A DNA stretch of 51,331 nucleotides. Source: Opitutales bacterium. Lineage in GTDB: Bacteria > Verrucomicrobiota > Verrucomicrobiia > Opitutales > Seribacteraceae. Position numbers and translations under genes: made by a program. This document shows, piece after piece, positions 1 to 12,583 of this stretch (positions within the stretch are counted from its first letter, which is position 1; each line of letters begins with the position of its first letter). The stretch spans positions 1 through 51,331 of the forward strand of contig JAQXBH010000229.1 of the NCBI GenBank assembly GCA_029252505.1, written 5' to 3'. The notes beneath the pieces are model-generated. The model saw nothing but the letters and a program-made list of their open reading frames with translations, had not been told where the DNA came from and made no database searches.

Positions 1-1055
1 ATATTGACCAAACTGGCGTTTTGTTCAAAAGCAACCTGCTGTGCTTCTTTCCACGTTAGTCGGTTTGTAATTACCCTGTACCGTAAGTCGATTAAATTAA
101 GTGACCCACCACTGGAGGCAATTAGTGGATAGCGTACTTGACCATTATTGTATCCTCTTCGTTCAGCGCTTACTATTCGCTTTTTTAATATTTCTAAACC
201 CTTTTCAGTCGGTACTTCCAATTGCATACCGGCAATCTTTACCTCAAAGGCATTTGGAGTTTGAGGATTTGCGGAAGGATTTATCTGGAGAGCATTTTCA
301 GAAATGGCAACATCATCCCCCAACTTCACTCCCCATATTGCGACTCCTTTAGTTGTCTTAAGAAACTTTCGGTTTCCATAGGTGTGAATTTCAACGGTTT
401 GCCCGTCCGGCAAATTGGCAAATCTTTTAATCATTCCCATTGGACGGTTGGGATCCTTGCAGATATGAAGTGCTTTAATATCGGTATAAGAAGAAACCCA
501 ACTTTCCAAGTGTTGGCTAATCTGTTCGGGCAGAACGGTAAGCCAATTTTCATCCACCGCAAGCTCGAGTGCTTTTCGGGGATCGTTTTGAATAATACTT
601 CTAAATACTGGTGCTCTGTCCTTCGCGAAATTTTCTCCCTTTTTAATCAATTCCCACTTTATTCTGGGATCATGTTCACAGTTCATTTCTTCAAAGCATT
701 GAAATGCTTCAAAAGTTTGAAGCCAATTTTCAAAGGAAACAATAGCTGTGTGTTTGGATAAATCCTGATACTTTTCAGCCTCACACCATTCCGCATTATT
801 CGAAACGATCGGAAGATTTGATTCTGGTTTTTTTACCGTTTTCTCCAGCGTATTGTATTGGTACTTTTCTACTGAATTTTGGGAAATTACCTCTTTGTTT
901 TCTTTGGCTGTACTCCTTACTAGATTTTCACTTTTTTTAAAAAGTGCGAACACGAGAAGTCCCAGACAAGACCAAGGGAGAAAAATTTTGGCCAAATGAA
1001 CCCCAAACCTAGTTCTTAGGCTTTTAGAATGACTGCTTGGGGCGGGCTTGGGCAT
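1..1055 (-). CDS. Partial CDS (runs off left edge); membrane-anchored protein with the start of a C-type-lectin-like domain
   Basis: Manual reverse-strand reading from ATG at 1055: MPKPAPSSHSKSLRTRFGVHLAKIFLPWSCLGLLVFALFKKSENL..., open to the edge and ending ...RYRVITNRLTWKEAQQVAFEQNASLVN, which resembles the start of a C-type-lectin fold (W-x-E-A-x-x-x-A...LV-x-I). Frame at 1055 and at the edge agree. Not in the ORF track because it lacks a stop in the window. Confidence 0.75.
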   Translation of the reverse strand, partial: MPKPAPSSHSKSLRTRFGVHLAKIFLPWSCLGLLVFALFKKSENLVRSTAKENKEVISQNSVEKYQYNTLEKTVKKPESNLPIVSNNAEWCEAEKYQDLSKHTAIVSFENWLQTFEAFQCFEEMNCEHDPRIKWELIKKGENFAKDRAPVFRSIIQNDPRKALELAVDENWLTVLPEQISQHLESWVSSYTDIKALHICKDPNRPMGMIKRFANLPDGQTVEIHTYGNRKFLKTTKGVAIWGVKLGDDVAISENALQINPSANPQTPNAFEVKIAGMQLEVPTEKGLEILKKRIVSAERRGYNNGQVRYPLIASSGGSLNLIDLRYRVITNRLTWKEAQQVAFEQNASLVN

Positions 1056-1297: not shown

Positions 1298-4200
1298 TTA
1301 TTTAGGTGCTGCAATTAGAGCTCCCCCTTTTGGAGTTCTGCGAATTGTTCCCGTAGGAGTCATAATCACCGGGTCTTTAAAAATAGATTGCGGGCTGATA
1401 TTTTGAATCACTTCACGAACCGGAGAACCACCACGGGATACAATACTGGCACTTACAAAAATTAATAAATTTCTTTTGGAATAACTCTCTGCAGAAGATT
1501 GAAATAATCTTCCAATCAAAGGAATATTTCCAAGAACGGGAATTTTATCGTTCACCGTTTTAACTTCTTCACGGGTGAGTCCACCGATAATAACAGTGGC
1601 ACCATCAAAGATGGTTACAGATGTATTCACCTTACGAACCGAGAAAATTGGCATTAATATACCGGAAGGTTGTATAATCATTGGGGGAGTGCCTGCTGCA
1701 GAAGTTCCAATCATTGCGGACGAGCCACCGTACTCAATAAAACCGTCGAATTCGGTGACCTTCGGGCTTAATTCAAGGGCAATGGAATTATATTTCTCAA
1801 TCCTTGGAGTTACATCCATCACGACTCCCACCTCTCTGAAGCCGGGCTGTTCATCATCGGGTGCAACTGTATCAAACTGAGGAATTGCACTCTGTATTTG
1901 AATTGCCTGAGCCAAAGCACCTGCTCCTCCTTGTTGCCCCCCTCCTCCACCTCCTCCACCGCCCGGTAATGGGGCGGGTTCGTAATCTGTTGGGTAAATA
2001 AATTCTTGGGCAATGGTAATTTGAGCAGGTTGTCCGTCCATTACCGTTATTCTTGGAGCACTCAGTAAGTCAGTTCCCTGTTTACGCTGTAGGGCACTTA
2101 TTAGTAGTTTTGCCTGGCTACCTCCCAAAATCATACTGCCTCCGCTTCCGCCCATAGTTAAGCTTTGGCTACTTGCTTGCATGAGTGGGGATACTCCCTG
2201 GCCGATCCCAATTTTACCGGGCAGACTAGGGGTTGGGTTAGGAATGTTTAAGCTCGCATCACGATTGTCAGGAATACTAATGATGGTATCTCTTGACATT
2301 CCTGTTGCTGAATGGGCGGTTGCCAATGTTCGCGTATTTCCAGTAAAACTTTTCCCAAAACTAATCACCGGTTGCCCATTTGAATCAACCACGGGATTTA
2401 AGGTAGTGGGATCTAGGACAAAACTCGGATCATCCCAACTGTATTGCCAATCAAAACTAATTTCATCCAATGCACCTTCCTGAACTTCCAGGAATTTTGT
2501 TTCAATCTCTACCTGCCGGCTCGAATCTGCATCCAGTCTTTCTAAAATTCGTTCAATGAGATCCAATAAGCGACGCTCATGGGTAACAATCATTTGAAAG
2601 CCATCAAAGACAAATTTCTGCCCTTTTGTATCATCAAATGGAATTCCCGCTCCTTCTAAAAAAGCTTTTATCTTGGCTCCTGTATCATCAGCTCCGCCTC
2701 CACCGCCTCCGGGAGCAGGCGCAAACGGATCAGCTCCTCCTCCACCCATCCCAGCGCCGGCACCTCCTGTCATACGCTGAATCGTTCCTTGTGTAACTTC
2801 ATAAAATTCTGTTTCGAGAGAGCGACCGGTGAAAGTACCCCCCGATTTCGATACCACAATCGCATCATTTCGTATGTCATAAGTCCAACTTACCATTTCT
2901 GCTATAAATTGTATCATTTTGCCAAGTGGCATTGGATTAAGAGTGATAGTAACATTTGGAAACGGTTCATCTCCATTGGCTAGTGGAATGATGTTCACTC
3001 CTTTTTTTGCTGGATCCGGCTCAGTAAGATCAAAGGTTTTAGCTTGTCTTTGAAGTTCCTGCATCACTTCCGGAAGGGGTGATTCAAAAAATTGTACACC
3101 TGGAACCTGAATGATTTTTAATTTATTTTCTAAATTACTCGGCCCCTCTTTAACTTTTTCAACTTCTTCAATTTGTCGATCAAATACCTTTGGCCTTTCC
3201 CATTCGCGCTCAATTTCCTCGAGCATTTCCGCACGCGTTTTTAAGTATCCGAGATAACTTTCTTCGGTCCGCATTCTGGCAATTCTCTTAAGCATTTCCT
3301 TCGCTTCATAATTATCAGAAAATTGAGTTTCAATGGTTCGGTAAGTTTCGGTCGCTCCCGTAAGATCCCCATTAATATATTGTACTTTTGCACGCATCAA
3401 TAATTCATTTAATTCCAATCTTGTATCCTTCCAACCAGGAGTAAATTCTGTAATATCTCGACGGTAAGGGTTTGCCTTATCTGCCGCAATTCGATCCTCC
3501 ATACGTATTGCTTTTTCCAATTCATTATCAAGTGCCTTCTCCCCTTCTGTCAGTTTTAATCCGGGCCTGCCAAATGACATTGGATCTCCCTGTATATCGC
3601 GATCTTGGTAAAACCCGGTTCGGAATGCATCTAAATATTGATTGGCTAAATCCCAGTCTTTTTCAGACCGTGCATCTTCCGCTTTTTCTAGATTAATACG
3701 ATTTTTTAACAGTGCAGCATCTAATATTAATGGCCAGGTGCGCGTATTAGGTTCAAGGAAAAGCTTTATCTTGAGGAGGGCTTTGTCCGCATCTTCATAC
3801 TCTTTTTTGCGAATCATGCCCTTTGCCTTGGCCAACATTTCCTCGGCAAGCACTGCCTGCTCTTCCACCTTTTCTTTGGCTTTGTCCATTTCGGCCTCAA
3901 AATCAGTTTGTTCTTCTATTCCAAGTGTTTCAGATTCTGCCTTTCGACGAGACTCCTCCACATCTTGGAAGTCAACAACGAGTTCCTGCACCCGACCAAC
4001 CTTACCCTTTAGCATCGCCTCCCCCATCCGGTACCAAGTAATTTGCTGTTTGGTTTTATAAATATCACTGATGAGTGCAATACTTGAAACATTTGATGGT
4101 AATATACCGAGAGCCTCGTCAAGCTGGTCCAAGGCTAAGTCATATTGGCCATCGGCGCCGTCTTTTCTGGCTTTTCCTAACAATCTCTCGGCTCGACGCA

Positions 4201-4840
4201 TCGATGTACCCATTTTTGCCTTCTCGGACTCCATCAGTCTTTCGAAGTCCGGCTTTGCATCGTCCTCTGGAAGTCCCGCTTTGGCGCGAATTTCAGTTAA
4301 ATCTTTTTTCGCCTTTTCTAATTCTTCAACTAGTTTACCTACCAGTGTTGCATCGGTTGACCCTTCTTTTTTAAGAACCAATTCTCTCTGCCTTTTTCTA
4401 CCCTGTAATTCGATATCAATATTTTCTCGGTAACGGGAAAGGAATTGACTGGCTAATGAATACTTTTTATCAGCCATCGCCTCCTGAGCCAACTGGTAAT
4501 ATAACTTCGTTTCTGCCTTTCGGATTTGATTAAGGTAAAAACTATTTTCTTCATTTTCAGTTATTTTCTCTAAAACAACTCGAGCCATTTTTTGAGCCTC
4601 ATCCACCCTTCCAGCACTCGCTAATTCGCGGATATCTTTAAGTACTCGAACTAAATTTGTTTCTGCTCCAATGTTAAATATTGGTGCCGAAACAACATTG
4701 GTGTCTATTTCGGGTGAACTAGATTGTTGAGGTAAATTATTGAGTTGTGAATTCTCATCATTAAACTGGGCATTTAGTAATGAGAAAAACTGACATGCAC
4801 ATGTCAGAGTTATTAAACGAAGATATAAGTTTAAATCCAT
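1298..4840 (-). CDS. Type IV pilus-like outer-membrane secretin with long N-terminal TPR/coiled-coil region (Amuc_1098 family-like); likely start at internal Met (MDLNLYLRLITL..)
   Basis: C-terminal secretin signature (..VGVVMDVTPRIEKYNSIALELSPKVTEF..., ..TSVTIFDGATVIIGGLTREEVKTVNDKIPVLGNIPLIGRLFQS..), secretin N-domains, signal peptide, and neighbours matching the Amuc_1098-1102 order. Confidence 0.88.
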   Translation of the reverse strand: MDLNLYLRLITLTCACQFFSLLNAQFNDENSQLNNLPQQSSSPEIDTNVVSAPIFNIGAETNLVRVLKDIRELASAGRVDEAQKMARVVLEKITENEENSFYLNQIRKAETKLYYQLAQEAMADKKYSLASQFLSRYRENIDIELQGRKRQRELVLKKEGSTDATLVGKLVEELEKAKKDLTEIRAKAGLPEDDAKPDFERLMESEKAKMGTSMRRAERLLGKARKDGADGQYDLALDQLDEALGILPSNVSSIALISDIYKTKQQITWYRMGEAMLKGKVGRVQELVVDFQDVEESRRKAESETLGIEEQTDFEAEMDKAKEKVEEQAVLAEEMLAKAKGMIRKKEYEDADKALLKIKLFLEPNTRTWPLILDAALLKNRINLEKAEDARSEKDWDLANQYLDAFRTGFYQDRDIQGDPMSFGRPGLKLTEGEKALDNELEKAIRMEDRIAADKANPYRRDITEFTPGWKDTRLELNELLMRAKVQYINGDLTGATETYRTIETQFSDNYEAKEMLKRIARMRTEESYLGYLKTRAEMLEEIEREWERPKVFDRQIEEVEKVKEGPSNLENKLKIIQVPGVQFFESPLPEVMQELQRQAKTFDLTEPDPAKKGVNIIPLANGDEPFPNVTITLNPMPLGKMIQFIAEMVSWTYDIRNDAIVVSKSGGTFTGRSLETEFYEVTQGTIQRMTGGAGAGMGGGGADPFAPAPGGGGGGADDTGAKIKAFLEGAGIPFDDTKGQKFVFDGFQMIVTHERRLLDLIERILERLDADSSRQVEIETKFLEVQEGALDEISFDWQYSWDDPSFVLDPTTLNPVVDSNGQPVISFGKSFTGNTRTLATAHSATGMSRDTIISIPDNRDASLNIPNPTPSLPGKIGIGQGVSPLMQASSQSLTMGGSGGSMILGGSQAKLLISALQRKQGTDLLSAPRITVMDGQPAQITIAQEFIYPTDYEPAPLPGGGGGGGGGQQGGAGALAQAIQIQSAIPQFDTVAPDDEQPGFREVGVVMDVTPRIEKYNSIALELSPKVTEFDGFIEYGGSSAMIGTSAAGTPPMIIQPSGILMPIFSVRKVNTSVTIFDGATVIIGGLTREEVKTVNDKIPVLGNIPLIGRLFQSSAESYSKRNLLIFVSASIVSRGGSPVREVIQNISPQSIFKDPVIMTPTGTIRRTPKGGALIAAPK

Positions 4841-4942
4841 GAAAATATAGGGCAATAGAATAAAAATTCTACAAATCTTATACCATACATTGATGGGATT
4901 GGGTCAATAAATAAAAACTGTAATTGTAACAGAAGTTAAATT

Positions 4943-6226
4943 TTAGAAATTTAGAGTTTTGACAATAGTTTTATCTGTCCCCGAAACCTTTTTTTCAATT
5001 TCTATATTCCTATTTTCTTTATTTATGCGAAGCAATTTATAATTTCTGCTCCCAAAATTAAATACTCTTTCAATTTCATTGGCATCAAGCTCGATCGAAC
5101 TTGGTGCTTCACCCTCAATATCAAACTTTAAGTTTATTTTATAATCACCGGTATCCACTTTATCCATCAAGCTATTGATCTCAAAAGGCTTCCCTCCTTT
5201 ATTAAAATCACGGACCAAAGCACGACCCACCATTTTAGCACCACCTGTTTTAGGGTCCTTCACTTGTTGAACTGTAAAAAATTCAACTTGTACCAATTTC
5301 TTCTCATCATTCGGGTCTGTTTTAATTAACGAAGGCATTCCAGGTCGATAGTTTTCATTCTGCTTGTAAGGAACATTTAATTCCAAACGGTTTTTGACAT
5401 TTTTATCTGATTTAGAAGAAACTTTTGTATGAAGGTCTTCGAAGTAGGGAGTCTTCCCTATCCAACTTGATAATTTTAATCGGTAATGATTTTTTTCAAA
5501 AGAAACTACTGTCAGTCCGAACTCTTCCTCTTTTGCCTCTTCGGTTGGAGCTTCTGGCATGGTAGTAGTTAATTCGCCGTTTACCAAATAAATGATGGGG
5601 GGAGTAAACAAATCGTATATGGAAGAATTTTCTTCCGATGAAGTACTTGTCCAACGGCTCTTTTCGGTCCGATTTGAATCATTTAAAAATTTGGATTTGG
5701 TTTGATATACAGAAATTCTAGAATCTTCTTCATCTACATTCTCGATGTCTTTGTTCAGAACCAACTTTTGTTCACCGCGAATAAACTTAATTTCTTTAAA
5801 ACTAATATTTTTTACTCCTTTTTCAGTGTCTAAGGCGATAGGGTTTCTAGATTTATCCCACCCAGTCGTTAAAATTGTACTACTAGGGTTTAAGAGTCTT
5901 CCTTTATATGTTTCCTGAGATTTCAACTGAATGGTAACTCTGCTCTTTTTAGAAAAAATTACTTTCCTTACACTGAATGTTTCGATTTCATTCAGTGCGG
6001 TCTTGTGAATTACAATTTCATCGCCTGGTACCAATTGAGTTTCTTTTAACAATACTAATACATTTTCTCCGCCAACAGAATCTATTGAAAAAGAATAAAT
6101 TTCTGTAGGTTTGTTTTTCTTTTCTAGTTCACCAGATTCAAAAAAGGAGATAACACTAACTAGCCCAAGGCTCAGTACAACGAGCACCATAGCGATTTTG
6201 TCGTAATGTGTATTAACGAATTTCAC
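4943..6226 (-). CDS. Amuc_1099-like pilus-system protein, single N-terminal TM
   Basis: Position between secretin and Amuc_1100-like gene, N-terminal TM (IAMVLVVLSLGLVSVISFF), 427 aa; start overlaps upstream gene by 14 bp. Confidence 0.65.
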   Translation of the reverse strand: MKFVNTHYDKIAMVLVVLSLGLVSVISFFESGELEKKNKPTEIYSFSIDSVGGENVLVLLKETQLVPGDEIVIHKTALNEIETFSVRKVIFSKKSRVTIQLKSQETYKGRLLNPSSTILTTGWDKSRNPIALDTEKGVKNISFKEIKFIRGEQKLVLNKDIENVDEEDSRISVYQTKSKFLNDSNRTEKSRWTSTSSEENSSIYDLFTPPIIYLVNGELTTTMPEAPTEEAKEEEFGLTVVSFEKNHYRLKLSSWIGKTPYFEDLHTKVSSKSDKNVKNRLELNVPYKQNENYRPGMPSLIKTDPNDEKKLVQVEFFTVQQVKDPKTGGAKMVGRALVRDFNKGGKPFEINSLMDKVDTGDYKINLKFDIEGEAPSSIELDANEIERVFNFGSRNYKLLRINKENRNIEIEKKVSGTDKTIVKTLNF

Positions 6227-7325
6227 GATCTAAAAAGATTTTATCTAATCTCGCATTCATTTTTGAATTACCCGACAATTCTAAGAACTTTTGGAGTGGT
6301 TCTTCAATAAGTTGTATCGATTTTAAGGACCCGACTAGGAAAGATTCGAAGTCCCGCTCAATTTCATAAATATATTCAATTAAAAATGTAAATGTTGATT
6401 CTACATTCTGAACGATTGGCAGTGGAGTACCTGAATCGCTTGATTGCCCAGAAAACGGGCTTGGAGTAGATTGAGTTGTAAAAGAGGCAGTCGATTCAGC
6501 CGATCGGTTCACGATCAAATCTTTCACTAAAAAGGGTGGCCTTAATTGATTGATAAAGCTTCTTGCATGGGATGTGTGACCTTTAAATTTGATAACAAAT
6601 GCAAAAGATTTAATTCCTCCATTGTAACGAACTAATTTATCCGCAAAATTGGGACTCGTTAATTGATCGCCTGCAATATGCTGACTATCTTCCTGACCCA
6701 CAGGCTCACGAGATACAGTGAGGAGTTTGATTCTATGTTCACCATTGGAGGATTCAGTTAAATATTCGATTAAAGTTGAAATAATCTTACTTTGAATACC
6801 AAGCAATTTTGCCTCATTTTTGGAAAAACTTGGCCAAAAACCGTCGTAAGAGGACAGACCAAACCCGTATTTTTTTTCTTCGGCTTGATTGGCCACCCCG
6901 AACAGATTACCACCCGTTGATTCATTTTGATTAAAATTGATATTATTTTTTTTACATAAATTGCGCAATCGTGAATAAAGCCTGGTCAAATCTGCGTTGA
7001 TTGATTCCGGGCTTTTGTTTTTCCAATTGGTGAAGATATTTTCACTTGGGTTAAGAATATTGTTCCAAAAACGATGCTGATCTTTTTCTACAGTCGATAA
7101 AGTTATTAAATCTTCTGTCGCTAATTTTGCATCTTCGGAAAGTCCTTCGTAAAGCAAAAGTTCCTCTCTTAAGCTTTTTGCTTTTTGTTCTTCACTGTTT
7201 ATCGAAGAGATAATCTCTTCTAGGTTATCTCCAGAATTACAAGATATAAATTGTAAGGAAATAAATAAAACTAAGAACAAAAACAACAGGGTAAAGAAAA
7301 ACTTATTATGTTTTAAAAAATTCAT
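6213..7325 (-). CDS. Amuc_1100-like pilus-associated membrane protein
   Basis: N-terminal TM/lipobox-like segment, coiled coil, CKKNNI motif resembling CKKKNI of Amuc_1100 (recalled), and gene order. Confidence 0.65.
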   Translation of the reverse strand: MNFLKHNKFFFTLLFLFLVLFISLQFISCNSGDNLEEIISSINSEEQKAKSLREELLLYEGLSEDAKLATEDLITLSTVEKDQHRFWNNILNPSENIFTNWKNKSPESINADLTRLYSRLRNLCKKNNINFNQNESTGGNLFGVANQAEEKKYGFGLSSYDGFWPSFSKNEAKLLGIQSKIISTLIEYLTESSNGEHRIKLLTVSREPVGQEDSQHIAGDQLTSPNFADKLVRYNGGIKSFAFVIKFKGHTSHARSFINQLRPPFLVKDLIVNRSAESTASFTTQSTPSPFSGQSSDSGTPLPIVQNVESTFTFLIEYIYEIERDFESFLVGSLKSIQLIEEPLQKFLELSGNSKMNARLDKIFLDREIR

Positions 7326-7335
7326 GGATCACAAT

Positions 7336-9099
7336 TTATGACTTTGGAATAAATTCATATTTAAATTGAGTAAAATACCGTTTAAATAAATCTCCCTCTC
7401 CTTCAATTGAAAAAGTTTTTTTATCTACCTTTTCAATAAAAGGAAGAGCTTCCAAATATTGAGTCAACGCTTCTTGTTTTACACTATTTAATTCAATTAA
7501 ATGATTTCTCTTCTCATTTGTTTCGGACTCCTTAAAGCCTTTTTCAATCCGAACTAGATATCTACCAGAAAGAATTATTTTATATCTCTTTTTTTCATTC
7601 AATCGTTGATTGCCTACAGTATTTTCTCTGCTTCTTGTTGAGATTTCCTGAAATCTTAGTTCATCAAACCAAGCGTCCGAAACATCTGCATGGTCCAATG
7701 AGTCTTGTAATTGATTAAGAAAATCCTGTATCACCCAACAGGAAAAGCTTTTTTCTCTAAATTTTTGATTTCGTTCGAAAACCAATTGATTAAGCTTATC
7801 GGTAAACAAAAACTGCTCTTGAAGTAATTCCTGGTCTGCAATATTTGACTTCAGGTCTCTTGTATTCTGCCTAAGTGAACTTAACTCTTTTTCCAGCTCA
7901 CCCTCCAATGACGATTTGTTCAATATACTCGGTATTGGCAGAAGAGAAAAAATAAATGCGGCAATTAATAATAATGGTATTTTCTTTTTAAAAGATAGAT
8001 TTGTTAGCTTATTTGCAGGAAGTAAGTTAAGTGGGCGCTTTAAGGTATTCCCTTCATTGCTATTCAAAATTGCTGTCGCCAATCCAACAGGTTCACCAAT
8101 CATGTAAGGAAGAAGAGCGCGCATTTCTTGGCTGATTCCATCCTCTAACAATAAACTCTTCAGGGGGTCAAAATAATCGATATCTAAACTTTGGCTTTGG
8201 CTCAGGTATTCTGGTAAGTTATTCAATAAAGCACCCCTCCCTGCCAGAAACATACGATTCGGTGACTTCCCTTTTTTAAGCCTCTTATAAGTTACAATTG
8301 ACCGGGTAATTTCCTGGCTTGCTCGATTTAAAAACTGTTCCGAGCAATTTTCCAAAACTTGAACACTTGGGTCATCTGGCGAAAACGCCACCTGTCCTGA
8401 AAAATAACTTTTTTTGATTTCCTCTGCTTTTTCAAATAAAATCCCCAAACTATCCGATATATTTTGAGTTAGAGCATTTCCCCCTATTGCTATGCTTCGG
8501 ATAAGGAACCCAGTGGGGTTAATAAAAAGTAAATTAGTAGATTTTGCACCAATGTTTACCACAAGTGTTTCTTGTTGCTCTAATCCTACACCCGATGAAA
8601 TTAATGCATTGTAATCCAGTATCGGTGCAGGAGTAATCTGCAATGGATTTAATCCAATTTCGACCACTTTTTCACAAAATGTTTCCGCAATTTCTGGCTT
8701 GACCGCAAAGGCAAGAATTTCCTGCTCAACCCCGTCATCATCAATTACCTGGTAGTCCCATATAAGTTCTGCCAGGGGAAATGGCATTTTTTGTGACAGT
8801 TCAAAGGCTACTATCTTTTTCTGTTTTTCTTCGTCTACATGAGGAACGCGGATTGTTTTATTGAGAAGAAGGCTTCCCGGAAAGATAAACCGTGCATCCC
8901 CTTTAAGTTTTTCGTTCTTACAAAGTAATTCCAAGCCGGCAATCAATGAATCGAGCCATAACTGATCATTTGAATAATCGTAGTGTAAAGTTTGAAGAGC
9001 AACCTGTTTGAGTTTTAACCTTCCTCCCTCTAATGTAAACACACTAGCGGATAAATGAGAGATACCGCAATTTATAATTACTTCTCTCTTTTCGCTCAT
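7336..9099 (-). CDS. PilM-like actin-fold ATPase fused to a PilN-like TM region (Amuc_1101-like)
   Basis: Actin-like/PilM features (LVVNIGAKSTNLLFINPTGFLIRSIAIGGNALTQNI..., MFLAGRGALLNNLPEYLSQ), followed by TM and coiled coil. Confidence 0.75.
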   Translation of the reverse strand: MSEKREVIINCGISHLSASVFTLEGGRLKLKQVALQTLHYDYSNDQLWLDSLIAGLELLCKNEKLKGDARFIFPGSLLLNKTIRVPHVDEEKQKKIVAFELSQKMPFPLAELIWDYQVIDDDGVEQEILAFAVKPEIAETFCEKVVEIGLNPLQITPAPILDYNALISSGVGLEQQETLVVNIGAKSTNLLFINPTGFLIRSIAIGGNALTQNISDSLGILFEKAEEIKKSYFSGQVAFSPDDPSVQVLENCSEQFLNRASQEITRSIVTYKRLKKGKSPNRMFLAGRGALLNNLPEYLSQSQSLDIDYFDPLKSLLLEDGISQEMRALLPYMIGEPVGLATAILNSNEGNTLKRPLNLLPANKLTNLSFKKKIPLLLIAAFIFSLLPIPSILNKSSLEGELEKELSSLRQNTRDLKSNIADQELLQEQFLFTDKLNQLVFERNQKFREKSFSCWVIQDFLNQLQDSLDHADVSDAWFDELRFQEISTRSRENTVGNQRLNEKKRYKIILSGRYLVRIEKGFKESETNEKRNHLIELNSVKQEALTQYLEALPFIEKVDKKTFSIEGEGDLFKRYFTQFKYEFIPKS

Positions 9100-9123
9100 A
9101 ATTAGAATTGGAAGAAATTGAAA

Positions 9124-9801
9124 TTAATACCCTGAGCCCTTAATTCTTTTTACCGGACCCACGCCTTCTAAATAATTGGAATTTACAATGTGTGCCGGTA
9201 ACAGGATACCTTCGTTTTTAGGTGCATTAGACTGTGCCTGTTGCTTAAACTTTTGTAATATTCTTTCTTCCCTGTATTTATCGAAAAAAATCGAATCCGA
9301 GATTTCTAATGGGATACCATCGTACATTATTTCTACCACATACCCAACTGCGTTAATATAACTTGTTAAAAAACCATCGCGTTCGGCAATTGCTGCAGGA
9401 AATAAAAAGTGGGCATATTTTGTGTTTCTATCAAATTTGATTGTCATATACTCAACTTCCGCACTGTAGTACTGATAAAATTCTGCATCTGGTAATTTTA
9501 GGGTGCGAAGTGACTTCTTTTGATATTCATTCGCAAAGCATAATGATAAGCGTACCTTTATTTTATCGATAAATTCAACATTGATCAAATCACCTTTGTT
9601 TGATGGCTTACTGGTTTTAAATTTTTCCAGCAAAGGATGGGTAACAAATACAAAGGGAACGGTAGCTTTTACCCACTGATCCGATTCTTTAGTTATAGCA
9701 ACCTTCCCTCCCAGTTTAACGAATTGATCGGGATTTGCTTTCAGGTTTCCAAGGAAAAGTAATGATACAAGGAAAAGTAATGTATTTTGTAAGAATTTCA
9801 T
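9124..9801 (-). CDS. Amuc_1102-like pilus-associated periplasmic protein; likely start at MKFLQNTLLFLVSLLFLGNLKA
   Basis: Signal peptide from internal Met15 of the ORF 9124..9843; first gene of the minus-strand pilus-like cluster. Confidence 0.6.
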   Translation of the reverse strand: MKFLQNTLLFLVSLLFLGNLKANPDQFVKLGGKVAITKESDQWVKATVPFVFVTHPLLEKFKTSKPSNKGDLINVEFIDKIKVRLSLCFANEYQKKSLRTLKLPDAEFYQYYSAEVEYMTIKFDRNTKYAHFLFPAAIAERDGFLTSYINAVGYVVEIMYDGIPLEISDSIFFDKYREERILQKFKQQAQSNAPKNEGILLPAHIVNSNYLEGVGPVKRIKGSGY

Positions 9802-9881
9802 AAGGCTAGTCTTTTGAGGTTTTGTATTTTGGTAGATTGCCATCTTTCCAAATCTTGTGTAGTAATAACAAGCATAAACTA

Positions 9882-10370
9882 ATGGATTTTAAGATATCTT
9901 GCTTACTTTTTATTCGCAATCACGCAGAAAAAATTCTTTTACTCAAGAGGAAAAAATCTCCGAACCAAGGTTTATGGAGTCCACCGGGGGGTAAATTGAA
10001 TATGAAAATAGGGGAATCTCCCTATGAATGTGCAGTTCGGGAGGCAAAAGAGGAAACTGGTATGACCCTTACTAATGCTGATTTATCTTTATTTGGGTAT
10101 GTTTCCGAAAAGGGATACGAAAATTCATGTCATTGGCTCATGTTTTTATTTGAATGTAAAAAAACGATCCTCAATCTTCCCGGAGAATTTGAGGAGGGTT
10201 ATTTTAATTTTTTTACTAGAGATGAAATTAATCGCCTAGAAATTCCCGCATCTGATCATGAACTTGTCTGGCCTTTCTACGATAAACAAAAATCTGGTTT
10301 CTGGGGAATATCTGCAGACTGCTCTAATCCACAGTTACCTAAGATTAAGATTGAAGCGAATCCCGAATAA
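9882..10370 (+). CDS. Nudix hydrolase
   Basis: Nudix box GGKLNMKIGESPYECAVREAKEETGM; internal ATG at 9882 preferred over 9822, avoiding overlap with the divergent gene. Confidence 0.9.
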   Translation: MDFKISCLLFIRNHAEKILLLKRKKSPNQGLWSPPGGKLNMKIGESPYECAVREAKEETGMTLTNADLSLFGYVSEKGYENSCHWLMFLFECKKTILNLPGEFEEGYFNFFTRDEINRLEIPASDHELVWPFYDKQKSGFWGISADCSNPQLPKIKIEANPE

Positions 10371-10417
10371 ATAGATAATTCCAAATTCTATTAACTTTTA
10401 CTCCACTTTTTAAATTT

Positions 10418-11587
10418 ATGGAAGGCTTACACCACGATACTATTTTAGAACCCTCTGCAAAAGATTCTGCCAAAATAAAAAAGGAATCTAATGAAGAAGA
10501 AAAAGGAGAAACTCATTCGGACCAAGCGGATTCCATGGATTTTTCTACCTCTACTGCAAATCAGTCTCTCTCGGCAGAGGATAAGGTTGATTTGTACGAA
10601 AAAATGGTTCGGATTAGAAGATTTGAAGAACGATCTCTTCGCTCCTACCAGCAGGGACATATTGGTGGATTTTTACACCTCTACATCGGACAGGAAGCTG
10701 TAGCCGTTGGTTCAGTTTCAATGCTTGGTGAAGACGACCATGTAATCACTGCCTACCGAGACCATGGTCATGCTTTGGCTGTAGGTATGGATTTTGACGA
10801 ATGTATGGCCGAGCTTTACGGAAAAAAAACCGGTTGCTCCAAAGGAAAAGGCGGTTCGATGCATTTCTTCGCTCCCGATAAAAACTACTGGGGAGGACAT
10901 GGTATAGTAGGAGGACAGACTCCACTTGGCCTCGGGATTGCCTTTGCACTTAAGTACAACAAGAAAAAAGGTTCATGCCTTTGCTTTATGGGTGATGGAG
11001 CAACCAATCAGGGCCCCTTTTATGAATCTTTAAATTTAGCTTCCCTCTGGAATCTACCCGTCGTTTATATCATTGAAAATAATGGCTATTCCATGGGCAC
11101 GGCAGAATCTCGACATTCCGCGGGTGATCCACTTGCACGTCGGGGAGAAGCCTTTGATATAGATTGGTCTGTTTCCAATGGGCATGATATTTATGAGGTT
11201 AGGCAGACCATATCCGACGCATTGACTAGTGCACATGAAAAATGCAGGCCCTCGGTACTTGAAATTGTAACCTACAGATATCGCGGTCATTCAGTTGCGG
11301 ATCCTGATCAAACCTATCGAAGCAAAGAAGAAATTGAGGAATACAAAACAAACAAAGATCCTTTGAATTTATTTCGTGAGAAATTAATAAAAGAAGGCAA
11401 CATTTCAGAAGACCAAATTAAAACTATTGATAATAGGGCGAAGGGCGATGCGGAAGCTTCTGCTGAATTTGCTGATGCAAGTCCCTACCCAGATCCAAGT
11501 GAATTGATGGACGATATTTACTGGGAGACCGATAACCCTGGAGAAAAAACATCAGAGGGTACCATGTTTTTCGAAACTCCATCTTAA
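10418..11587 (+). CDS. pdhA: Pyruvate dehydrogenase E1 component alpha subunit
   Basis: TPP-binding GDGATNQGPFYESLNLASLWNLPVVYIIENN; KGKGGSMHFF; followed by E1 beta and E2. Confidence 0.95.
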   Translation: MEGLHHDTILEPSAKDSAKIKKESNEEEKGETHSDQADSMDFSTSTANQSLSAEDKVDLYEKMVRIRRFEERSLRSYQQGHIGGFLHLYIGQEAVAVGSVSMLGEDDHVITAYRDHGHALAVGMDFDECMAELYGKKTGCSKGKGGSMHFFAPDKNYWGGHGIVGGQTPLGLGIAFALKYNKKKGSCLCFMGDGATNQGPFYESLNLASLWNLPVVYIIENNGYSMGTAESRHSAGDPLARRGEAFDIDWSVSNGHDIYEVRQTISDALTSAHEKCRPSVLEIVTYRYRGHSVADPDQTYRSKEEIEEYKTNKDPLNLFREKLIKEGNISEDQIKTIDNRAKGDAEASAEFADASPYPDPSELMDDIYWETDNPGEKTSEGTMFFETPS

Positions 11588-11605
11588 TTTAATATATCTA
11601 ATTTT

Positions 11606-12583
11606 ATGGCAAAAATAACTTACAGAGAAGCACTCAACCAAGCTCTTTCGGAAGAGATCAAAAGAGACAATAATGTAGTCCTTATGGGGGAAGAAGTGGC
11701 CCAATTTAAAGGGTCATATAAAGTTTCAGAAGGAATGCTGGAAAAATTTGGTGCCGAACGAGTAATTGATACCCCTATTAGTGAAGCCGCTTTCTCTGGA
11801 CTAGCAGTGGGAGCTGCTATGATGGGAATGAGGCCAGTTGTAGAATTTATGTTCTGGAGCTTTTGCTATGTCGCGTTTGATCAAATATTCAATAACGCCG
11901 CAAGCGTGAGATATATGTCAGGTGGCCTTATTAATGTCCCGATCGTTTTTAGAGGACCCGCAAATGGCGGAACCAATGTTGGAGCGACACACTCGCATAC
12001 CCCAGAAAATTTTGCTGCTAATACACCAGGATTAAAGGTTATTTGCCCGGCAACTCCTGCCGATGCCAAGGGAATGCTCAAAGCTGCGATTCGGGACAAT
12101 GATCCCGTTTGTGTGATGGAAAATACCATTCTATACAATATGCAGGACGAAGTTCCGGACGACCCCGATTTTATTATTCCTCTCGGGAAGGCAAATATCC
12201 TCAAAGAGGGAAAGGATATGACCATTATTGCTCATGGAAAGGCAGTTCATACCTCTCTAGAGGTTGCTCATACACTCGAAGAAAAACATAATGTTTCCGT
12301 CGAAGTTTTGGATTTAAGGTCAATCCGTCCATTGGATGTTGATGCGATAATAAAAACGGTCAAGAAAACAAACCGAGTTTTATTGGTGGAAGAAAATAAA
12401 CCATTTTGTGGTGTCGATGCACAAATTGCTTTTCTTATACAAGACCAAGCCTTCGATTATTTGGATGCACCGATTAAAAGAGTCTCCGCAATAGATGCTC
12501 CACAGGCATACAGCAAAGCACTTGAGAATATTCAAATTCCTGCTCATGACCGAATTTTGGCCAAGGCAATGGAACTAATCTAA
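11606..12583 (+). CDS. pdhB: Pyruvate dehydrogenase E1 component beta subunit
   Basis: ITYREALNQALSEEI..GEEVAQFKGSYKVSEGM.., LDLRSIRPLDVDAI. Confidence 0.95.
   Translation: MAKITYREALNQALSEEIKRDNNVVLMGEEVAQFKGSYKVSEGMLEKFGAERVIDTPISEAAFSGLAVGAAMMGMRPVVEFMFWSFCYVAFDQIFNNAASVRYMSGGLINVPIVFRGPANGGTNVGATHSHTPENFAANTPGLKVICPATPADAKGMLKAAIRDNDPVCVMENTILYNMQDEVPDDPDFIIPLGKANILKEGKDMTIIAHGKAVHTSLEVAHTLEEKHNVSVEVLDLRSIRPLDVDAIIKTVKKTNRVLLVEENKPFCGVDAQIAFLIQDQAFDYLDAPIKRVSAIDAPQAYSKALENIQIPAHDRILAKAMELI

Follow-up and report, generated by a model that had tools for sequence, protein, structure and literature searches.

A divergent Amuc_1098-1102-like gene block in a marine Opitutales genome as the probable channel part of a retractable type IV pilus machine

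Introduction

What do the genes of an Amuc_1098-1102-like locus assemble: a pilus, a secretion apparatus or a machine for DNA uptake? The question is raised by a block of five genes at positions 1298-9801 of contig JAQXBH010000229.1 (assembly GCA_029252505.1), whose 51,331 nucleotides were analysed here as a whole and are called the window in the following. This contig, C228 in our numbering, comes from a metagenome-assembled genome (MAG) of a marine Opitutales bacterium (3.1 Mb in 291 contigs, 87% complete, 3% contaminated). In Akkermansia muciniphila, the Amuc_1098-1102 locus is known as MUL2 (PMC5332112, PMC13174399), Amuc_1098 has an outer-membrane location (PMC4960237) and a review that cites the Amuc_1100 structure notes a likeness to proteins of type IV pili and of type II secretion systems (T2SS) (PMC13119276). 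MUL2-type loci have been described for Verrucomicrobiales and as less conserved in Chthoniobacterales, with Opitutales unmentioned in the main text.

Based on homology, gene order and a family-by-family search of the window's own genome (G000), we argue that the block encodes the envelope-spanning half of a retractable type IV pilus machine, namely its alignment part and outer-membrane channel, and not a T2SS, a reading to which we assign a probability of roughly 0.85. It follows from the linkage of the block to motor genes in other genomes, from the presence of a PilT-type ATPase, a prepilin peptidase and pilins elsewhere in the own genome, and from a T2SS that has its own GspD.

Results and discussion

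The five genes and their Akkermansia counterparts

A first-pass annotation, made from the letters of the window alone, had described five co-oriented minus-strand genes resembling the Akkermansia locus. The open reading frames (ORFs) were recovered as described, in the order S (9124-9801; the ORF spans 9124-9843, but a start at the ATG at 9801 is likelier), MN (7336-9099), O (6213-7325), P (4943-6226) and Q (1298-4855, with the ATG start probably at 4840), separated by tight gaps of 24, 10, -14 and 87 bp. They take the places of Amuc_1102, 1101, 1100, 1099 and 1098, respectively. S, P and O each carry one N-terminal hydrophobic segment, in agreement with the three single-transmembrane or signal-peptide proteins noted at first pass, and Pfam recognised two domains only, those behind the annotated secretin motifs and PilM-like actin fold, both above their gathering scores.

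Q is a secretin with a long N-terminal region. Of all NCBIfam models, NF042912 (Amuc_1098) matched it best with 387.2 bits, below the cut-off of 750, and the Pfam secretin domain was found with 116.7 bits (gathering score 27.5); according to NCBIfam and Pfam, the pore region covers residues ~755-1140 (1436-2593, minus strand). In the secretin tree, Q groups with the secretins of other such blocks, while the GspD of its own genome sits on a branch 4.6 long. The model matches and the tree together identify Q as the PilQ-type secretin. Three further secretins besides Q and GspD were observed in the same genome on contigs C126, C161 and C196 (loci L059, L058 and L057); the first resembles a second T2SS-type secretin and the other two form a separate group.

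MN is a PilM-like actin domain fused to a PilN-like half with a transmembrane helix and a periplasmic part. Its best match was NF045709 (Amuc_1101; 233.7 bits, cut-off 650), and it scored 92.9 bits with the pilM model TIGR01175 (cut-off 133), which places the actin-fold domain at residues 5-327 (8119-9087, minus strand). Pfam PilM_2 was found with 61 bits (gathering score 27) and in all 14 of 14 family members. A profile of MN matches solved structures of PilM as well as 5eou, a PilM/PilN chimera; the alignment reaches position 360 and so includes an NLLP motif (8017-8031, minus strand) that reads NLLP, DLLP or DLEP in most homologues. NLLP is the N-terminal motif by which PilN docks on PilM. 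The helix of the PilN-like half, predicted from hydropathy, follows at residues 374-392 (7924-7980, minus strand). As judged from the Pfam and PDB profile matches, MN thus contains the PilM of a type IVa pilus.

O, P and S had to be assigned over larger distances. O scored 21.1 bits with NF038287 (Amuc_1100; cut-off 180), and this match covers residues 1-55 only, while a bridge protein of locus L097 reached 67.3 bits with the same model. In profile-profile comparisons (hhalign), O aligned with its Akkermansia counterpart at 97-99% probability (crossed controls <1%) and S at 89-95% (crossed controls <2%). The comparison was weaker for P (9-72%), which was also assigned by synteny and an iterated profile; in addition, P and Amuc_1099 share an N-terminal signature, a YDKI motif ahead of the transmembrane segment. 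S has an N-terminal signal peptide, belongs to a family of 13 members and is predicted to adopt a beta-rich fold (predicted local distance difference test, pLDDT, 77; predicted template modelling score, pTM, 0.69). Foldseek returned no match of the S model in the PDB at E<=0.001; Amuc_1102 (7dsz) was outside the top 50, so this search speaks neither for nor against the assignment of S. Direct queries of the PDB, both by phmmer and with profiles, turned up no relatives of O, P or S.

The proposed check with NCBIfam models was borne out in one part: the Amuc_1098 and Amuc_1101 models are the best ones for Q and MN, but none of the five genes reaches its curated cut-off, and P and S are unmatched by NF042425 and NF042424, P being without a family match in Pfam as well. 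We therefore regard the window genes as distant orthologues and not as NCBIfam equivalogs. In the syntenic sense, the block is nevertheless an Amuc_1098-1102 block, with five genes in order that are homologous gene by gene; direct best matches tie Q and MN to it, and for O, P and S the tie comes from synteny, N-terminal signatures and profiles that bridge the distance, so that the equivalence suggested at first pass stands. In G021, the Akkermansia genome of our set, O is near-identical to the solved Amuc_1100 and S to the solved Amuc_1102; the cut-offs of Amuc_1098, 1099, 1100 and 1101 are exceeded by Q, P, O and MN, respectively, and that of Amuc_1102 by S of a relative (G113). The profiles of the window families match the syntenic genes of intermediate Opitutales. 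A second, paralogous secretin locus of Akkermansia (L091) is without any block partner.

Distribution across the phylum

All five genes were present in order in 42 of the 52 Verrucomicrobiota loci sampled (mostly one per family); the remaining loci are without some members, and the order is never broken. Chance can be excluded because 28 distinct loci carry Q, the order recurs throughout the phylum and the controls were near zero, with no matches among shuffled ORFs and 0-3 among decoy ORFs. The secretins most similar to Q (54-96% identity) come from loci in MAGs and single cells of marine Opitutales and Opitutia, as fits a verrucomicrobial genome other than Akkermansia, and the order S-MN-O-P-Q is kept in most of the loci that have enough sequence. 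The known range of MUL2-type loci is hence extended to Opitutales and to many other families of the phylum.

Profiling the secretin and PilT across genomes gave little information, as both are nearly universal: at E<=0.001, the Amuc_1098 model found 233 of 241 Verrucomicrobiota genomes (25 reach the cut-off, and some of the lower matches are other secretins) and PilT was found in 239 of 241. Only three secretin candidates were scored per genome and many cross-matches to other secretins and ATPases occurred.

Motor, retraction and pilin genes

On the window contig there is no PilB, PilT, PilC or pilin, just as noted at first pass; all matches to PF00437, PF00482 and PF07963 sit on other contigs. 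The genome search located them: contig C222 reads coaE-rho-pilB-pilB-pilC, a PilT-type ATPase lies on C17 (the genome also has a pilT_fam match), pilins are encoded on C218 and C15, and a type IV prepilin peptidase (peptidase A24) on C146. The own genome thus holds both class III-signal pilins and the peptidase to cut them.

That the pilB, pilC and pilT genes belong with the block is indicated by other genomes, two of which have block and motor genes in a single co-oriented cluster. A single contig of G015 (L118) carries pilB-pilT-pilB-pilC, three N-methyl pilin-like ORFs, an ORF of 704 amino acids and S-MN-O-P-Q, with coaE-rho (L142) downstream of the block after at least one other gene. In G157 (L143) the order is pilB-pilT-pilB-pilC-MN-Q-coaE-rho, O, P and S not being separately labelled there. 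The copies on C222 are orthologous to the block-linked ones (PilB1 50%, PilB2 50%, PilC 42%), and their arrangement coaE-rho-pilB-pilB-pilC recurs in the four relatives of the window's genome that have the complete stretch (G241, G242, G243 and G245). In about 23 sampled loci outside Opitutales, it is the block itself that is followed by coaE, usually with rho. The most economical scenario is that a single ancestral cluster broke up and left coaE-rho beside either half. In Akkermansia G021, pilB-pilB-pilC (L171, 7231-12585) is followed by a class III pilin (GFTLMEILVVMVIIVVLATL), which we consider a candidate for the pilin of the Amuc_1098-1102 machine. What the complex assembles, left open at first pass, is thereby answered in part: two PilB, PilC and PilT belong with the block.

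We consider it unlikely that the block instead provides a second T2SS with its inner platform and secretin, a system that would export enzymes without a surface fibre. A T2SS (GspC-M) shares with the block a secretin and a platform architecture of actin domain and transmembrane helix. MN is laid out like GspL (actin domain, transmembrane helix, periplasmic part), Q scores 120 bits with the GspD model, the pilin-like genes of L118 resemble a pseudopilin set and protein 1 of C218 matches T2SSG. However, the actin domain of MN is PilM-like and is joined to the NLLP motif of PilN, the best model for Q is Amuc_1098, and the linked clusters pair the block with PilC and a PilT-type retraction ATPase and not with GspE and GspF. 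Moreover, C32 already encodes a complete T2SS, which brings its own GspL, GspM and GspD. Q shows neither a grouping with GspD nor a set of gspE-M; the first-pass annotation had named clustering with the GspD of a standard T2SS as an outcome that would overturn it, and the GspD of the complete T2SS turned out to be very distant.

A role mainly in natural transformation appears improbable, too. Competent bacteria use PilQ, PilM, PilB, PilC and PilT for taking up DNA as well, and Q has weak matches to HofQ models, but these amount to ~50 bits against cut-offs above 550, and among the loci read, none has com genes next to the block (no search was made for comEA, comEC and dprA). Very improbable is that S, the Amuc_1102-like protein (MUL2A), is itself the fibre pilin: it comes first in the operon and Amuc_1102 structurally resembles an archaeal type IV pilin (PMC13174399), but the S homologues read carry a Sec-type signal (for example, AASAQ in Akkermansia) and not a class III prepilin signal, which speaks against this role, and true class III pilins adjoin pilC or sit in linked clusters.

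Weighing the pilus reading

Several points weigh against a retractable type IV pilus. Pfam PilN, PilO and PilP, run on all members of the families, left MN, O and P unmatched, so that these three roles depend on gene order, topology and the NLLP motif, which do fit. The AlphaFold model of P (pLDDT 80, pTM 0.40, small Sm/SH3-like barrels) had no match in the PDB at E<=0.001, the P profile gave three matches among 1,418 decoy ORFs, and the search with iterated profiles was largely confined to the operon zone. The motor contigs were assigned to the genome by binning because the MAG is fragmented, although near-identical copies are present in relatives. The major pilin of the window's genome is without assignment. 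Finally, G116 and G208 have an Amuc_1098-like secretin and no PilT reaching the cut-off; retraction is hence not universal, and these genomes possibly have a non-retracting version.

With the pilMNOPQ operons of type IVa pili (Pseudomonas, Myxococcus, Thermus), the block shares PilM homology, the NLLP motif, the order M-N-O-P-Q and the secretin as last gene, and the genome has PilB, PilC and PilT as well. In contrast to these operons, a single protein combines PilM and PilN, the Pfam PilO and PilP models miss O and P, an additional first gene S is present and there are two PilB paralogues. The Akkermansia locus is alike in its five genes, their order and orientation, the secretin, the PilM-like protein, the bitopic O and P and the signal peptide of S. 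However, P is about 90 residues longer in the window (427 compared to 337 amino acids), all five window genes are below the equivalog cut-offs that the Akkermansia copies exceed, coaE-rho follows Q in Akkermansia where the window has a giant gene, and the window block has NUDIX and pyruvate dehydrogenase genes divergently upstream.

For the retractable pilus we infer the following architecture. MN would recruit the motor at the cytoplasmic face with its PilM part and enter the inner membrane with its PilN-like part, O and P would span the periplasm in the positions of PilO and PilP, and Q would form the outer-membrane gate in the manner of PilQ, with S as a putative periplasmic accessory protein. 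The two PilB-type ATPases and PilC of C222 would drive the pilus and the PilT of C17 would retract it, the fibre presumably being built from pilins cut by the peptidase of C146. The likely use of such a pilus would be to attach to particles or glycans and to draw them to the cell.

Neighbouring genes

Starting 243 bp after Q, the N-terminal 351 amino acids of a giant ORF (3-1055, minus strand) are cut by the contig edge; the ORF had been overlooked at first pass, and its remainder was not found in the own genome. A similar N-terminus lies downstream of Q in the loci of 19 relatives, and seven relatives have the full gene of 3,974-4,532 amino acids (minus strand: L146, 3807-16955; L147, 3900-15824; L149, 3277-16875; L150, 3456-16628; L152, 3614-16093; plus strand: L148, 4222-17646; L151, 4218-16595). 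Laminin-G domains are present in the giant proteins scanned, which differ in their further matches (C-type lectin, Ig-like, TSP3 and, weakly, reprolysin-like), and all full ones share a conserved tryptophan-rich C-terminus. Two other large secreted proteins have this C-terminal domain (L105, 3178-7581; L055, 3-2636; both minus strand), and the gene of L105 stands directly after the secretin of a block. The domain may be a general module for surface sorting or anchoring. The link of the giant gene to the pilus is one of position only. It is rather unlikely, in our estimate, that the marine Opitutales block and the giant lectin-, laminin-G- and metalloprotease-like protein form one dedicated system that catches and pulls in particulate polysaccharide, with the giant protein acting at the surface as an adhesin that the pilus machine uses or displays.

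On the other side of the block, divergent NUDIX and pyruvate dehydrogenase genes (9822-12583, plus strand) stand upstream in most Opitutales loci; they are as conserved as the giant gene and need not be related to the block. Scans for promoters and terminators yielded nothing clearly exceeding shuffled expectation. A perfect hairpin of 7 bp with a run of T after it (4790-4807, minus strand) lies within the signal-peptide codons of Q and could be an attenuator or a product of chance.

Implications

What is new here is a divergent member of the Amuc_1098-1102 block, together with strong comparative evidence for its motor, retraction and pilin genes. The gene of Amuc_1100, which has been widely studied as an outer-membrane probiotic protein, occupies the place of pilO in a pilMNOPQ operon. 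The linkage of the block to pilB, pilT and pilC in two genomes makes the idea that Amuc_1098-1102 serves a retractable pilus directly testable, and for Akkermansia the comparison names pilB-pilB-pilC as the motor genes and, directly after pilC, a candidate pilin.

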